A stretch of DNA of 6,177 nucleotides from Clostridia bacterium (lineage in GTDB: Bacteria > UBA6262 > WVXT01 > JAUXBS01), in contig JAUXDE010000098.1 in assembly GCA_030618495.1 (NCBI GenBank), positions 1 through 6,177 on the forward strand. Reading direction: 5' to 3'. This document shows, in pieces, positions 4 to 6,177 of the stretch. Below the pieces are notes generated by a model. The model did no database searches, had not been told where the DNA came from, and worked only from the letters and a program-made list of their open reading frames with translations. The translations under genes were made by a program, and so were the position numbers. Positions within the stretch are counted from its first letter, which is position 1; the number at the start of each line of letters is the position of its first letter.

Positions 4-109
4 TAGTGTAATCATTCACAGAGCAGTATAGTATTCTCACTCTTCGTTCCTTGACGCTGAAGCAAAATACTTCCAGCAGACGCAAAGCTATGTTAGTAAC
101 ACTACACTC
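4..109 (+). repeat. MITE-like intergenic repeat, copy 1
   Basis: This is the first of two same-orientation copies of a 103-106 bp element; the other is at 5456-5558. By hand alignment they are about 85% identical, with a perfectly shared 29-base core (30-58 here, 5479-5507 in copy 2). The ends are inverted: TAGTGTA at 4-10 and TACACTC at 103-109, a near-complete terminal inverted repeat. Internal complementary segments (AGTATT at 30-35 with AATACT at 66-71, and ACAGAGC with GCTATGT) would let the element fold into a long imperfect hairpin. It ends 15 bases before the start codon of the GGDEF gene, so it fills that gene's visible upstream region and must contribute to its leader or promoter region. 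No transposase is encoded. It may be a small non-autonomous mobile element or a structured intergenic repeat; the sequence alone does not decide between these. Confidence 0.8.
91..101. repeat. 11-bp perfect palindrome TGTTAGTAACA in repeat copy 1
   Basis: This is an inverted repeat with 5-base arms and a 1-base centre, identical in both copies of the long repeat (the second is at 5540-5550). It lies 24-34 bases upstream of the GGDEF gene start, where an operator could sit. Because it also occurs in the downstream copy, it is more likely a subterminal part of the repeated element than a dedicated operator. Confidence 0.4.
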
Positions 110-124
110 AGGAATCTTATAAAA

Positions 125-1942
125 ATGAAAAGAACAAATAAGAACGTTTTTTCAACACTTAGCCGGGTATCCCAGACTCCCCTGATATCCGTGAAAACAA
201 TGAGCAATGACAAAACTCAGGACATAAACTCCCCGGCCCTGGATAAACTCCTTGAAGGGCAAAGGAAGCTCAAGCTCACGGACATTACAGCTCCTGCGGT
301 TAAATCAGCCCTAAAGAAAAAAGAACTCCTGGTAATCGACAATTTAAACCGAAGCGCCGGTTTAAAGAAGCTCAAACAAACCGGTATTAACTCCTTAATC
401 GTAACCCCCTTCAAGGGAAAGGATGTTGAAGGAGCAGTTGTATTCTACTACAATAAAAGCAAGCATCCGGATAGCAGTGTAATGAACCTGATGCCTTGCA
501 TAAGCCACCTGGCATCCTGCAATCTGTATGATGAATCCCTGCATGAAAGAATTGAACAATTAAAAAAATCCTCTAACATGGATGGACTAACCGGTCTTTA
601 TAATCATAAGTACTTCCATGAGGCGCTTACAAAAGAGCTGTTGAGGGCTCAGCGTTTCAAGTACCCGGTTTCCATAGCAATGATCGATATTGACCATTTT
701 AAGAAGTATAATGACACAAACGGGCATCCCAGGGGAGATGCTGTGTTAAGGGAAATTGCGGGTATATTAAGGAAAAGCGTGCGTTCGTATGATATCCCTG
801 TAAGGTACGGTGGTGATGAGTTCTGCCTGATACTCCCCTATGCCAAGAGAAACCAGGCGGTATTCCTGCTTGAAAGGATACGTAAAAAAGTTGCCCAGTA
901 CAATTTCTATGGAAAGAGTGACCGGGGGAAGATAACCATAAGCGGAGGAGTGTCATCCTACCCGGGTAATGCCAATTATAAGTCAATGCTCATTGACAGG
1001 GCCGACAAGGCGCTTTACCTTGCGAAAGAAGAGGGCCGGAACAGGATATGCACATCCCTGGGATCTGCCAAGGATGTTATCAACTTTGCCTTCTGCAGGC
1101 CGACTGTAACGAAGAGCCCGTTCTATTCCTATATTATCAAGGGTATGAAGAATGTAATAGATGACGTGGGGAATATCAGGCTGTTCATAGAGATTTATGA
1201 GAAAAATCTCAAGAACAGGGACCACATAAAAATTACTAAAAGTTTTATTAAGAATAAAATAGATGCGGTTGCCATTTCCTCCATGGCGGGAGTGGACTTC
1301 AGACTGCAAGTGGAGGAATTGAGCAGGGCAGGAATCCCGGCATTCATATTTAATACACCTTCCGTAATACCCCTTGGCAAGGTCGTAAACTACACGGGTT
1401 TTGACCACAGGGGCGCAGGAAGGAAGGTTGCAAAGTATCTAATAAGAATATTAAGGAACAGGGGAAAGGTGGCAGTTATAGAAGGATTCCCGGAAATTGC
1501 CTCGATAGAGATGAAGGAAGGCTTCTTTGAAGTTATAAAAGAGTCAAATGTAAGTGTAGTTTCAACTGAATGCGGTGAATGGCGAAGAATCAAGGCAAGG
1601 GACATAACCAGGAAGTTAATCAAAAAACATCCTGACATAGATGCAATCTGGGGTGAAAACGATGAAATGGCGCTGGGAGCGTCGGATGCGATAAAATCAA
1701 ACGGCATGACCGGGCAGGTATTTACGATTGGAACCGACGGAAGCCAGGCCGCCTTCGAAGCCATTAAAGAGGAACATCTTACTGCAACCCTTGATACAAA
1801 TCCCGTTGAAATGGGAAAGATACTAATGAGGACTGTAATAAGAAACACCATAAAAGAGGAAAAGATTGAACCATACACATGGTCACCCATTAATATAGTT
1901 GACCTTGAAAACGTTGAAGATAGTATAGCGAAAATAATATAA
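125..1942 (+). CDS. GAF-GGDEF diguanylate cyclase fused to a sugar-binding PBP-like domain
   Basis: This 605-residue soluble protein is predicted to make c-di-GMP from two GTP. Residues about 10-140 look like a GAF sensor with a short first helix. A linker helix leads into the GGDEF domain at about 150-312, which opens with MDGLTGLYN. The active site looks intact: GGDEF at 229-233, metal-binding Asp188 in the IDIDHFK motif, and Asn196 and Asp205 at nucleotide positions. RSYD at 220-223, five residues before GGDEF, is a complete inhibitory I-site. Residues about 318-600 resemble a type 1 periplasmic sugar-binding (RbsB/Peripla_BP_4) domain, with a NDEMALGASDAI stretch at 512-523 and TIGTDGS at 534-540. 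No signal peptide or membrane helix is visible, so the sugar-binding domain should be cytoplasmic, as in LacI-type sensors. The ATG at 125 has only a weak AGGA (110-113) upstream. The reading frame is open back to 32 but has no earlier start codon. It is the first gene of the putative operon, 33 bases before the GH2 gene. The ligand is unknown. Confidence 0.9.
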   Translation: MKRTNKNVFSTLSRVSQTPLISVKTMSNDKTQDINSPALDKLLEGQRKLKLTDITAPAVKSALKKKELLVIDNLNRSAGLKKLKQTGINSLIVTPFKGKDVEGAVVFYYNKSKHPDSSVMNLMPCISHLASCNLYDESLHERIEQLKKSSNMDGLTGLYNHKYFHEALTKELLRAQRFKYPVSIAMIDIDHFKKYNDTNGHPRGDAVLREIAGILRKSVRSYDIPVRYGGDEFCLILPYAKRNQAVFLLERIRKKVAQYNFYGKSDRGKITISGGVSSYPGNANYKSMLIDRADKALYLAKEEGRNRICTSLGSAKDVINFAFCRPTVTKSPFYSYIIKGMKNVIDDVGNIRLFIEIYEKNLKNRDHIKITKSFIKNKIDAVAISSMAGVDFRLQVEELSRAGIPAFIFNTPSVIPLGKVVNYTGFDHRGAGRKVAKYLIRILRNRGKVAVIEGFPEIASIEMKEGFFEVIKESNVSVVSTECGEWRRIKARDITRKLIKKHPDIDAIWGENDEMALGASDAIKSNGMTGQVFTIGTDGSQAAFEAIKEEHLTATLDTNPVEMGKILMRTVIRNTIKEEKIEPYTWSPINIVDLENVEDSIAKII

Positions 1943-1975: not shown

Positions 1976-2089
1976 ATGTTTGGTAAAATGCTGAATATAA
2001 TTAAGAAACATAAATCGTTTTTTGTGCTTACTGTTATAGTTATTGGATCCTTTGCATTTTTTGTTAATAGCGTCAGGGCGGTAAAGGCA
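1976..2089 (+). other. Sec signal peptide of the GH2 enzyme
   Basis: Residues 1-13 are basic (five Lys and one His). Residues 14-30 are a hydrophobic stretch. Small-residue motifs SVRA and VKA follow, giving possible signal peptidase I cleavage after Ala35 or Ala38. There is no lipobox Cys, so a soluble secreted product is more likely than a lipoprotein. An uncleaved membrane anchor is possible. Confidence 0.75.
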
Positions 2090-4708
2090 AGTTCCGACAG
2101 CTCTGAGAAAAAAATGCTGTTAAAAGAAAACTGGTTTATAAAATCATCCGCAAAGGAGAAAAAATGCGGAAAAGTCATTTCAGCCGGTGATTTTGTGCCG
2201 GGAGAGGACTGGTATAAAACGGATATGCCGTCAACCGTAATGTCCGTGCTGGTAAAGCATAAGGCTGTACCTGACCCATATGTCGGGAAGAACATGAAGA
2301 ATATTTCAAAAAAAATGTTCAAAAAACCGTGGTGGTACCGTACTGAGTTCCATCTCCCTGAAAATTATAAAAATAAAAAAATATGGCTGCACCTGGATGG
2401 TATTATTTATAAGGCTGATATATGGCTGAACGGCAAACTCGTTGCCGGAAAAAAAGAAATTGAGGGTGTCTATAAACTTTTCAAACTCGACGTAACGGAT
2501 ATAATCTCATATGAAAGTAAGAATTTTCTTGCCATAAAGGTCTTTCCCATTAAACCGGGCGACCTGTCTATCGGTTTCGTTGACTGGAATCCGTTCCCGC
2601 CGGATAACAATATAGGGATATGGAAAGATGTGTACGTAAGGGCAACGGGCTCAGGAGTGATAAGGCATCCGTTCGTAGTCACTGACCTGGACCTGCCATC
2701 GTATGACACTGCCCGGCTGAGTGTCACGGCAGAAGTGTACAATGCAGGCCAGAATATTTTGAACGGGAAGCTCGAAGGCAGGATTGGCAGTATAACGTTC
2801 TCGCAGGAAATTGAGATAAACTCCGGGGAAACGAAACTCGTAAGCTTCAAGCCCGAAGAATTCAGCCAACTCATCATATCAGACCCGAAGTTATGGTGGC
2901 CCAATAATGTCGGGCCGCAAAACCTGTACAGACTTGAATTGCTGTTAAAAGTCAATGATGAAGTATCGGATGCAAACAGTACGAATTTCGGGATTCGTGA
3001 AGTATCGTCCTTCTTTAACGACAAGGGGTACAGGGGTTTCAACATCAATGGGAAGAAAGTACTGATAAGAGGTGGCGGATGGACGGACGACCTGATGCTT
3101 GAAAACAGGGATGAGGTTGTCGAAGCAAAAGTCAGGTATGCAAAGAACATGAACCTCAATACTATTCGCGTTGAAGGGATATGGGGTAAGGACTTCCTGT
3201 ACGATAAATGCGACGAACTCGGGATACTGGTACTGGCAGGCTGGACCTGTCACTGGGAATGGGACCATTACCTGGATGTACCTTGCGATGAATACGGCGG
3301 AATATACGGAAAGGCAAGCATGGACATCGCGGTCGATTACTGGAGGGAGGTTATACTGAGGTTAAGGAACCATCCCTGTATTTTTGCATGGATGTACGGT
3401 AGTGACAAGCCCCCGAGGCCGGAACTGGAAAAAAGGTATATAAAAATACACGAGGAATATGACCCGACAAGGCCTTATACATCTTCTGCCACTGACAGAA
3501 AGAGCGAGATAACGGGCAAAACAGGTGTCAAGATGTACGGCCCCTATGATTACGTGCCTCCCGCTTACTATTACTTCAACAATAATGCCGGGGGAGCTTT
3601 CGGCTTTGCCACGGAAGAGGGGCCGGGAGCCACTATCCCACGTGTTGAAAGCATGAGAAAGATGCTGCACGAAGATGAATTATGGCCTATAAACGACGTC
3701 TGGTTCTACCACTCGAGTACGAGGCCAAGGGACCTTAAAGCAAATACCTTTTATGTGAAAACGCAGTATGGAGAAGCATCGGGCATTGAGGATTACTGCG
3801 CAAAATCGCAGCTTATGAATTACGATGCTGCAAGGGGACTGTTCGAGGCATGGGGCAGGAACAAGTACCTTTCAACCGGGATAATAAACTGGATGTACAA
3901 CGCCAGTTGGCCGTCAGTATGCTGGCAGTTGTTTGACCATTACCTTCTCCCGGGAGGCGCGTTCTACGGCACTCAGGAGGCATGTGAGCCGCTTCATGCG
4001 CAATTTTCCTACGATGATAATTCCGTGGTAGTTGTAAACAGTTATTACAAGGATTTTAAGGGACTAAAAGTATCTGCTGACATCTACAATATTGACGCAT
4101 CCAGGAAATATTCAAAAACAGTAACGGTTGATGCCGGAGAAGACAGCAGCAACAGGGCATTTTTCATAGATATGCCTCAAGACCTGTCGCAGGTCTTCTT
4201 TCTGAAACTTGAACTGAAAGATTCCGGAAAACCTGTATCATCCAACTTCTATTGCCTGTCGAAAAACAGCACTATGAAAATAGGGCTGGAAGACGAATTA
4301 TTTAAACTAAAGGAAATGAAGGAAGCCGAGGCCTTTTCACCGTTTGCTGACGAAGCGGAGTATATGTATAATTCACCGGCTGATTTCAAGGGCCTTGCAG
4401 AACTGCCGGAAGTGGAATTAGACGTCAAGGGTGTATTGAAAAAAGTTGATGAGGGAAATAAGGTGGAAGTTTCAATCAGGAATCCATCGGAAAACATTGC
4501 CTTTTTCGTTCAGCTCGATGTGACAAAAGGGCAGGGCGGGGAACCGGTTGTACCGGTTTATTGGGAAGAAAATTACGTAAGCCTGCTTCCTGGAGAGGAA
4601 TTAGAGGTTTCTGCAGTATTTTCCGGAAGAAACCTGGACGGGATGAAACCCTTTATAAAAGTTAAGGGATGTAACGTGCCGATAAAAACTATAAAAATAG
4701 GAGAATAA
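1976..4708 (+). CDS. Secreted GH2 exo-beta-D-glucosaminidase (CsxA-like)
   Basis: This 910-residue enzyme is predicted to remove glucosamine from the non-reducing end of chitosan or chito-oligosaccharides outside the cell. After the signal peptide come a GH2 sugar-binding jelly roll (about 48-225), an Ig-like sandwich (about 230-340), a TIM barrel (about 343-675) and two C-terminal beta-sandwich regions (about 676-765 and 805-905). Most GH2 enzymes have an Asn-Glu acid/base pair. The exo-glucosaminidase subgroup uses Asp in a Ser-Asp motif. This protein has GSD with Asp477, and the probable nucleophile is Glu547 in TEEGPG (Glu548 is adjacent). The 70-residue spacing is close to the 72 of the Amycolatopsis CsxA pair Asp469/Glu541. 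The stretch GPYDYVPPAYYY at 522-533 also resembles that subgroup. A beta-mannosidase is the main alternative, less likely given the SD motif and the nagB neighbour. The stop codon is 3 bases before nagB. Confidence 0.88.
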   Translation: MFGKMLNIIKKHKSFFVLTVIVIGSFAFFVNSVRAVKASSDSSEKKMLLKENWFIKSSAKEKKCGKVISAGDFVPGEDWYKTDMPSTVMSVLVKHKAVPDPYVGKNMKNISKKMFKKPWWYRTEFHLPENYKNKKIWLHLDGIIYKADIWLNGKLVAGKKEIEGVYKLFKLDVTDIISYESKNFLAIKVFPIKPGDLSIGFVDWNPFPPDNNIGIWKDVYVRATGSGVIRHPFVVTDLDLPSYDTARLSVTAEVYNAGQNILNGKLEGRIGSITFSQEIEINSGETKLVSFKPEEFSQLIISDPKLWWPNNVGPQNLYRLELLLKVNDEVSDANSTNFGIREVSSFFNDKGYRGFNINGKKVLIRGGGWTDDLMLENRDEVVEAKVRYAKNMNLNTIRVEGIWGKDFLYDKCDELGILVLAGWTCHWEWDHYLDVPCDEYGGIYGKASMDIAVDYWREVILRLRNHPCIFAWMYGSDKPPRPELEKRYIKIHEEYDPTRPYTSSATDRKSEITGKTGVKMYGPYDYVPPAYYYFNNNAGGAFGFATEEGPGATIPRVESMRKMLHEDELWPINDVWFYHSSTRPRDLKANTFYVKTQYGEASGIEDYCAKSQLMNYDAARGLFEAWGRNKYLSTGIINWMYNASWPSVCWQLFDHYLLPGGAFYGTQEACEPLHAQFSYDDNSVVVVNSYYKDFKGLKVSADIYNIDASRKYSKTVTVDAGEDSSNRAFFIDMPQDLSQVFFLKLELKDSGKPVSSNFYCLSKNSTMKIGLEDELFKLKEMKEAEAFSPFADEAEYMYNSPADFKGLAELPEVELDVKGVLKKVDEGNKVEVSIRNPSENIAFFVQLDVTKGQGGEPVVPVYWEENYVSLLPGEELEVSAVFSGRNLDGMKPFIKVKGCNVPIKTIKIGE
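4699..4703 (+). promoter_or_regulatory. nagB ribosome binding site inside the GH2 gene end
   Basis: AGGAG is formed by the last sense codons of the GH2 gene (Ile-Gly-Glu, then TAA at 4706-4708) and lies 8 bases before the nagB ATG. The overlap points to co-transcription and likely translational coupling. Confidence 0.85.
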
Positions 4709-4711
4709 AAT

Positions 4712-5458
4712 ATGAATATTATAATCGAGAAGGATTTTGAAAAAATGAGTAAGCGCGGGGCGGCAATCATAACAGAAATAATCAAGAAACAGCCCGAAAC
4801 AGTACTCGGACTGGCAACGGGAAGCACCCCCATGGGATTATACAAGGAACTGGTTAAAACCTACAAGGAGGACGGGCTTAGCTTCTCGGAGGTTGTAACC
4901 TTCAACCTGGATGAGTACCTCGGGTTGCACAAAACCGACAAGGACAGCTATTACTACTACATGTATGAAAACCTGTTCAATCATATTAATATAAAACCTG
5001 AAAACATCTTTATCCCTGACGGTACAGTGGAGGATGTCGAAAAGTCCTGTTCCGAATATGAAGCAAAGATAAAGAATGCCGGGGGCATAAACCTACAGGT
5101 ACTGGGGGTGGGTACTAACGGGCATGTAGGATTCAATGAGCCGGGATCACAGCAGGATTCAAGGACCAGGGAGATAGCCCTCACTCCAAGAACTATAAAA
5201 GATAATTCAAGGTTCTTTAACAACAGTGTTGACAATGTTCCCAAGAAGGCAATAACGATGGGGATGGGTACTATTCTAGAAGTGGGAAAAATAATACTAC
5301 TTGCATGCGGAGCCCATAAGGCCAATGCTGTTTTTAAAACAATTGAAGAGCCTATGACTTCAGATATACCTTCCTCTCTGATGATGCATCATAAGGATCT
5401 GACAATTATTCTGGATGAAGAAGCCGCAGGTAAACTCAGCGCAAAGTACCGGAACTAG
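4712..5458 (+). CDS. nagB: Glucosamine-6-phosphate deaminase
   Basis: This cytoplasmic enzyme converts glucosamine-6-phosphate to fructose-6-phosphate and ammonia, feeding amino sugars into glycolysis. The 248-residue length matches the short Gram-positive NagB type, which lacks the longer C-terminus of the E. coli enzyme (266 residues). The phosphate-binding loop LATGSTPMGLY is at 34-44. FNLDEYLGL at 64-72 carries Asp67, equivalent to the catalytic Asp72 of E. coli. GTNGHVGFNEPG at 134-145 carries the ring-opening His138 and Glu143. The position of E. coli Asp141 is Asn136 here, as I recall for other Gram-positive NagB proteins. SRTRE at 150-154 is also typical. The gene starts 3 bases after the GH2 stop and should share its transcript. 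Its stop TAG (5456-5458) coincides with the first three bases of repeat copy 2, yet the protein is full length. Confidence 0.96.
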   Translation: MNIIIEKDFEKMSKRGAAIITEIIKKQPETVLGLATGSTPMGLYKELVKTYKEDGLSFSEVVTFNLDEYLGLHKTDKDSYYYYMYENLFNHINIKPENIFIPDGTVEDVEKSCSEYEAKIKNAGGINLQVLGVGTNGHVGFNEPGSQQDSRTREIALTPRTIKDNSRFFNNSVDNVPKKAITMGMGTILEVGKIILLACGAHKANAVFKTIEEPMTSDIPSSLMMHHKDLTIILDEEAAGKLSAKYRN

Positions 5459-5558
5459 TGTATCGTTCACATACGTACAGTATTCTCACTCTTCGTTCCT
5501 TGACGCTAAATCAAAATACTTCCAGCATATGTAAAGATATGTTAGTAACACTACACTA
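5456..5558 (+). repeat. MITE-like intergenic repeat, copy 2
   Basis: This is the second copy of the element at 4-109, in the same orientation. Its ends are a perfect inverted repeat: TAGTGTA (5456-5462) and TACACTA (5552-5558), extending to ACTAGTGTA/TACACTAGT (5454-5462 and 5552-5560) when flanking bases are counted. Further in, ACATA pairs with TATGT and AGTATT with AATACT, so most of the element can fold on itself. It fills the whole gap between nagB and the convergent gene. The TAG at its left end is the nagB stop, and the CTA at its right end is the stop of the minus-strand gene. It has no T-rich run after a short stem, so it is not a classical intrinsic terminator, though the fold might still slow or stop transcription from both sides. 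Confidence 0.82.
5540..5550. repeat. 11-bp perfect palindrome TGTTAGTAACA in repeat copy 2
   Basis: The sequence is identical to that at 91-101. It lies between two convergent gene ends, where an operator would make little sense, which argues that the palindrome belongs to the repeat itself. Confidence 0.4.
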
Positions 5559-6177
5559 GTAAGCGTTGTAAACTAAGAATTCCGTTACGTTGTTATTATG
5601 GACCTTTATGAATCCAACCGGGTCATCAAGGATTTTATACTCTTCTATTTCAAGTTCAGGTTCTGTTTTCAGGGTTTCAAGCCAATGGTATTTCAGTATT
5701 ACTTCAGGCCCCGTGGCCTTACTTACCTTTATCCTGTTGTAGCCGGCTGTAACTCTTCCGTTACCCTTAAGAAAGAAGTCCGGTTTCCTGATAACCTCAT
5801 AAATGGCGATGGTTTTCATGGACCTGATTTTCTTTATGTAAGCCGGGTATTTGTCAAACAGTTCCTTTGCTTTCGGTGAGAAGCAGAAAACCCATTTAAT
5901 ATTGTAATGTTCAATGTAATTCCTTAACCGGCTAAGGGATAATTCTTCGTGGCTCTTACCGAATATACCCCGGTGGTTAAACTGGGCAAAGCCGTGCTTG
6001 AGGAAAACCTTCGGATAAAGGCCTCCAATCAGTTCCCTTTTCACGAATAATGGCAGTAATGACGGCAGGGGATTGAAGTAGTCATCCTCGTAAAGCAGTC
6101 TTGCCGACCTGTCCGTGTTGTTTTTTATCCAATTAAGCGCCTGCTCCTCGTTTTCAGGTATGCGGGTGGATATCCGG
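5556..6177 (-). CDS. C-terminal part of a probable large membrane protein (5' end outside window)
   Basis: The frame is open from the stop (CTA at 5556-5558) to the window edge, giving about 206 residues. The true start lies beyond 6177. A GTG at 6044 is in frame, but coding continues upstream of it with protein-like sequence, including NEEQALNWIKNNTDRSARLL, so it is not the start. The visible part is soluble, with no membrane helix. The A-x-x-W-I-K-x-N-T-D-x-x-A-R-x-L pattern, followed by RELIGGLYP and an alpha/beta stretch with IKWVFCFSP, resembles the extracytoplasmic tail of multi-pass glycosyltransferase-like or YfhO-like membrane proteins. That assignment is from memory of the pattern and is tentative. 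It is transcribed towards nagB and is probably not part of the amino-sugar operon. Confidence 0.7.
   Translation of the reverse strand, partial: RISTRIPENEEQALNWIKNNTDRSARLLYEDDYFNPLPSLLPLFVKRELIGGLYPKVFLKHGFAQFNHRGIFGKSHEELSLSRLRNYIEHYNIKWVFCFSPKAKELFDKYPAYIKKIRSMKTIAIYEVIRKPDFFLKGNGRVTAGYNRIKVSKATGPEVILKYHWLETLKTEPELEIEEYKILDDPVGFIKVHNNNVTEFLVYNAY

Follow-up and report, generated by a model that had tools for sequence, protein, structure and literature searches.

A rare, paralogous family of proteins with a sugar-binding domain behind a GGDEF domain, found in glucosamine and galactose gene clusters

Main finding

The window (the whole 6,177-nt stretch of DNA that was analyzed) corresponds to contig C49 in the fragmented assembly of a 1.69-Mb genome (G000; 98% complete) and encodes a 605-aa protein (125..1942, + strand; ORF, Pfam and AlphaFold model) in which a GAF-like domain, a GGDEF domain and a sugar-binding domain of the periplasmic-binding-protein (PBP) fold follow one another. 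Our preferred reading, which we hold to be probable rather than certain, is that this protein is a soluble, one-component sensor of an intracellular sugar that sets c-di-GMP via its C-terminal PBP domain; we infer the identity of the ligand, the coupling through the dimer, the sign of the effect and the target processes. Proteins of this type form a family of paralogues, of which each genome of this genus has at least four, and the architecture is best explained by recruitment of an ABC-transporter sugar-binding domain (RbsB/AlsB type) into the cytoplasm, behind a GGDEF domain.

Domain architecture of the window protein

The N-terminal GAF-like domain (residues 1–116; 125..472, +) adopts an alpha/beta fold in the AlphaFold model; in the window protein it is too weak for Pfam to detect, whereas the orthologue from the other genome of the genus (L046) passes the GAF_2 cut-off (29.2 bits vs 28.6). 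A long helix in the model (residues 117–150; 473..574, +) runs into the GGDEF domain and would act as a typical dimer/signaling helix. The GGDEF diguanylate cyclase domain itself (residues 151–307; 575..1045, +) matches Pfam with E=1.6e-45 and scores 176.7 bits against TIGR00254 (cut-off 37.4). Its catalytic signature is whole, comprising DIDHFKKYND (metal Asp from residue 188), the active-site GGDEF motif (residues 229–233; 809..823, +) and YLAKEEGRN, and the RxxD inhibitory site RSYD (I-site; residues 220–223; 782..793, +) lies five residues ahead of the GGDEF motif (RSYD-IPVRY-GGDEF). By motif mapping, the domain possesses the A-site, metal Asp, FKxxND and phosphate-binding Lys region of a diguanylate cyclase.

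A short linker of about 10 residues (308–317; 1046..1075, +), marked by a pLDDT dip to 64–82, separates the GGDEF domain from the predicted cytoplasmic sugar-binding domain of the RbsB/AlsB type (residues 318–605; 1076..1939, +), to which Peripla_BP_4, the fold and the mapped pocket all point. The Pfam match to Peripla_BP_4 covers residues 327–573 (E=2.9e-42; 145.4 bits vs a cut-off of 35.1). In the AlphaFold model of the entire protein (mean pLDDT 88, pTM 0.57, 33-row alignment), in which the relative orientation of the domains is uncertain, residues 317–605 superpose on ribose-binding proteins with Z ~34 and an rmsd of ~2.2 Å over 270–280 residues, and on ribose-, allose- and glucose/galactose-binding proteins with Z 31–35. 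Profile scores of the PBP domain were 110 bits for AlsB, 80 for RbsB and 38 for the LacI-type RbsR, and profile searches found no HTH family match in the protein. The sequence-only reading, which had proposed an RbsB-like domain behind an intact GGDEF domain with its I-site and a PBP fold after residue 318, is borne out by the Pfam matches, the complete motifs and the structural superposition; of the domains it had suggested searching for, GGDEF and Peripla_BP_4 were both matched, and GAF rose above its cut-off only in the orthologue.

The hydrophobicity scan revealed neither a signal peptide nor a membrane segment: the maximum KD19 was 1.20, compared with 2.28 for the adjacent secreted GH2 enzyme, which has a hydrophobic N-terminal segment. 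A membrane-anchored or exported protein is ruled out by this lack of a hydrophobic segment, in agreement with the cytoplasmic placement proposed earlier.

A glucosamine locus around the sensor gene

The gene immediately downstream of the sensor gene, after a gap of 33 nt, encodes a secreted GH2 exo-beta-D-glucosaminidase of the CsxA type (1976..4708, +), which carries an Ig_GlcNase domain and matches CsxA (2vzs) with E=4.3e-146, its catalytic D469/E541 aligning to D477/E547. Only 3 nt further on begins the gene for the glucosamine-6-phosphate deaminase NagB (4712..5458, +), with 307.6 bits against TIGR00502 (cut-off 236.9) and E=4.4e-67 to 2bkv. Because the genes are 33 and 3 nt apart, the three likely form an operon. 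The window starts at a contig end, and no ABC permease or ATPase gene is present in it.

Related loci suggest what may lie upstream. In G001, the other genome of the genus, the gene immediately before the orthologue encodes a ROK sugar kinase, and a copy on contig C30 of G000 (89% identical) is preceded by the same ROK kinase and, before that, by a sodium:solute symporter. The overlap between C30 and C49 spans 772 bp with 91% identity, and C30 stops at the point from which the two sequences are identical. This has the appearance of an assembly bubble over a single locus; a tandem copy is the alternative. From this overlap it would follow that the symporter and kinase also adjoin the window copy. 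Taken together, the genes make up a glucosamine route that would cut, import, phosphorylate and deaminate. More generally, the identified neighbors of the window gene and of paralogue loci comprise a symporter, kinases and catabolic enzymes. As a separate observation, the title coverage of the orthologue contig (L046, JAUXBS010000174.1) is 113, compared with 12–19 for that MAG's remaining contigs with family members; it may be multi-copy or derived from a more abundant relative.

A paralogue in a galactose operon, and the ligand

In G001, a paralogue (contig C250; L036 6348–7748) occupies position X of a lacZ-galT-galE-X-galK cluster, flanked by galE and galK, with a LacZ-type beta-galactosidase gene and galT upstream. 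The strongest reason to think that the PBP domain senses the sugar handled by the genes around it is that two unrelated sugar pathways each have their own copy. The galactose-operon paralogue and the glucosamine locus lend support to the sugar-sensing half of the sequence-only proposal; the other half, a c-di-GMP switch, fails for the family as a whole, given its GGDEF-dead copies.

We mapped the pocket onto the contact residues of RbsB, where an aromatic sandwich, an Asp and an Asn hold the sugar. The predicted pocket consists of the aromatic residues F333, Y334 and W486, together with N410, N512 and D538. The aromatic positions F/Y333, Y334 and W486, like D538, are conserved in all full-length members, and N512 is conserved in most. 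In every member, the residues equivalent to RbsB N13 (to S/T), D89 (to N), R90, S103 (to F/Y) and Q235 (to T/A/G/V) are replaced. Since the pocket differs in this way from that of RbsB, the ligand cannot be read from it and could be something other than a free monosaccharide. At the position of RbsB R141, the galactose-operon copy retains Arg, whereas both glucosamine-locus copies have Met; speculatively, a pocket without this positive charge would be suited to an amino sugar. The most likely ligands of the window protein would be glucosamine first and glucosamine-6-phosphate (GlcN-6-P) second.

The ligand might instead be another small molecule, such as a sugar phosphate of central metabolism, a cell-wall sugar or an AI-2-like furanosyl compound, with the operon links being coincidental. 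Two members do adjoin cell-wall genes: C86 comes after murG in a cell-wall cluster (gene names read by eye off the sequence starts), and the neighbor of C270 is a gene with a murC-like start. Neither these two nor C163 and C120 adjoin sugar-catabolic genes, and the known ligands of Peripla_BP_4 domains include AI-2, bound by LsrB and LuxP (PMC12268683). However, the occurrence of two paralogue groups in two different sugar pathways is hard to obtain by chance, and we consider this alternative improbable. C143 lies near lspA (by eye from the sequence start), with a GH116 gene ~4 kb downstream.

Intact and degenerate cyclase sites

Intact GGDEF sites are found in the window copy, its orthologue, C120, two proteins of the Ratteibacteria group and a Myxococcales protein. 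The galactose-operon copy has EDDKI in place of the GGDEF motif and keeps RxxD, and its model still shows a GGDEF plus a PBP fold (pLDDT 90). At the same position C86 has NKNEL, C163 GKNEI and C143 SNNEF, and the I-site Asp is lost in all three; the loci of this second clade are L028 13865–15271, L038 8612–10018 and L029 3–1286. The C86/C163/C143 clade is well supported in the tree and the galactose-operon copy branches elsewhere on a long branch, so the active site was probably lost twice.

In intact members the GGDEF domain is usually the better conserved of the two: GGDEF/PBP identities are 56%/40% between C49 and C120 and 93%/75% within the Ratteibacteria-group pair, and about equal (74/73) between C49 and its orthologue. 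This would be expected of a fixed output combined with a diverging sensor. The order is reversed in the dead pair C86 and C163 (66%/74%).

These comparisons bear on the possibility that the PBP domain is mainly a dimerization or localization module, for example one that binds the operon's symporter or kinase, that senses no free ligand, and that leaves control of the cyclase to the N-terminal GAF domain. A GAF-like domain does precede GGDEF in both the window copy and its orthologue, and several classical sugar-contact residues are replaced in the pocket. Yet the galactose-operon member and the C86/C163 clade lack GAF and retain the PBP domain, the PBP domain is better conserved where GGDEF is dead, and the aromatic and Asp residues of the pocket are kept in all members; we therefore regard a purely structural role as unlikely.

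On the preferred reading of a sugar-sensing PBP domain, the dead members need another output, whether as c-di-GMP receptors, through heterodimer tuning or via a partner protein. Judged by its motifs, the galactose-operon copy is a candidate sugar-linked c-di-GMP receptor.

A proposed mechanism and its setting in the c-di-GMP network

In the proposed scheme, the secreted exo-glucosaminidase would cut chitosan-type oligosaccharides, and the sodium symporter would import the sugar, which the ROK kinase, its neighbor in the orthologous arrangement, would phosphorylate; NagB would then convert GlcN-6-P to Fru-6-P. The PBP domain would bind the incoming intracellular sugar and close around it, and this closure, transmitted via the short linker, would alter the mutual orientation of the two GGDEF domains in a dimer, such that c-di-GMP synthesis would track the supply of glucosamine-pathway sugar. 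Ligand closure acting through the ~10-residue linker on a GGDEF dimer would be the simplest coupling. PilZ proteins would read the signal and HD-GYP proteins would degrade c-di-GMP.

The genome contains eight PilZ and two HD-GYP matches, and a genome profile search of G000 found no EAL. The only other protein found in G000 with a standard GG[DE]EF motif is a PAS-GGDEF protein (C123), so that the PBP-type enzymes account for one or two of its two or three standard cyclases. In G001, which is 76% complete, all the standard GG[DE]EF motifs found belong to the GGDEF-PBP family. G000 also encodes a 672-aa protein (C9; L039 7374–9389) with a GGDEF-like domain (IGGDDF) followed by apparent HEAT-type repeats.

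A bolder extension, for which we would claim little probability, is that c-di-GMP synthesis in this genus has largely been handed to cytoplasmic sugar receptors, one per carbon source, filling the role of a LacI repressor via c-di-GMP. The dead members, including the galactose-operon copy with its RxxD, would then be sugar-gated c-di-GMP receptors or heterodimer partners that tune the active cyclases.

Distribution of the GGDEF-PBP fusion

The GGDEF-PBP architecture is rare. G000 contains, besides the window copy and C30, paralogues on C86 and C143 and fragments on C27 and C35, and G001 carries the same domain order on contigs C223, C120, C250 and C163 and on the cut-off C270. Beyond the genus, we found it in two MAGs of one small phylum, labeled Ratteibacteria and Omnitrophota, and in one Myxococcales MAG, so that the survey suggested by the sequence-only reading did turn up the architecture in other genomes. 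It was not found in four sister-family genomes of the phylum, nor among 376 other Myxococcota, where one weak PBP match appeared. A 386-genome prokaryote sample yielded no GGDEF-PBP protein outside these groups at the threshold used, its single match being the same record as L050. A scan of ~85,000 species, which rested on two PBP peptide motifs and so may miss distant members, returned no further full-length member among the best 80 loci.

That the PBP part might be a separate gene joined by a sequencing or assembly error is ruled out, because independent genomes carry the same fusion, which reads through on four independently assembled contigs (JAUXBS010000174, JAQURI010000058, JAHJCU010000004 and PMZX01000515). 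Several other matches were set aside: in Cohnella (L054/L055) the main open frame is a different one from the matching + strand stretch; in Vibrio (L099) two separate adjoining genes encode a signal-peptide RbsB and a PAS-GGDEF protein, with no fusion; and a 580-aa frame in Butyricicoccus (L103) consists of a stretch open by chance followed by an ordinary RbsB of the lipoprotein type. At the Ratteibacteria-group loci (L047 1314–2318; L050 4366–5370) the gene just ahead of the fusion gene encodes a zinc-type alcohol/sugar dehydrogenase, and a CstA-like gene (by eye from the sequence start) lies downstream on the opposite strand.

Relation to known sensors

PleD, WspR and GAF-GGDEF proteins resemble the window protein in the catalytic domain, the I-site, the N-terminal GAF and the signaling helix, but the window protein adds a second, large sensor domain behind GGDEF; no PDB chain matched by sequence spans both GGDEF and PBP. 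With RbsB and AlsB (Peripla_BP_4), its PBP domain shares the fold, the sequence family and the aromatic and Asp positions, yet it is cytoplasmic, fused to a cyclase, without a signal peptide and altered in its polar pocket. LacI-family regulators use the PBP type I fold as a cytoplasmic sugar sensor and are placed in sugar operons. In contrast to these, the window protein has no HTH, has GGDEF as its output and is nearer in sequence to AlsB/RbsB than to RbsR. What had seemed odd about the PBP domain is accordingly only partly so: its position behind GGDEF and its higher scores as an ABC substrate-binding protein than as a LacI-type regulator remain unusual, whereas an intracellular PBP fold, given the LacI family, does not.

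BT1754, a fructose sensor (2x7x), and XylFII are structural matches of the window PBP domain and, like RmcA (SBP_bac_3), use a PBP fold to control a signaling output; in all three the PBP domain lies outside the membrane and signals across it, whereas the window protein is soluble. As far as the relevant sections of a 2022 review of c-di-GMP sensing go, RmcA carries a periplasmic SBP_bac_3 sensor, PBP-clan sensors are placed in the periplasm, LacI-like Periplas_BP domains in c-di-GMP proteins are listed as putative, untested sugar sensors, sugars act through the PTS, and no case of a c-di-GMP enzyme directly sensing an intracellular sugar is given (PMC8846402). Neither a cytoplasmic PBP fold nor a PBP-fold domain in c-di-GMP proteins is new as such; the novel part is an SBP-type domain behind GGDEF that is soluble, multiplied within a genome and present in catabolic operons, a C-terminal fusion that we did not find described in the open-access literature. 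With intact and dead members in two named sugar pathways, the family would make intracellular-sugar sensing a testable question and would show how a transport protein became an intracellular switch; the copies in the glucosamine and galactose clusters probably tell the cell which sugar it is eating.

Other features of the window

A reverse-strand ORF (5556–6176, −) without a confident Pfam match runs off the contig. A repeat search identified an interspersed repeat of ~83 bp upstream of, and outside, the sensor gene (26..108, +), with a second copy downstream of nagB (5475..5557, +). A structured RNA in the copy before the gene was rejected, as there was no Rfam match and folding was no better than for shuffles. 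G000 holds 38 matches to the repeat, ~20 of them near full length, with further copies at L028 2257–2333 and L031 669–744. In several copies, the right end has a 25-bp inverted counterpart 85–160 bp away, forming MITE-like elements of ~190–270 bp, and several contigs end in copies.
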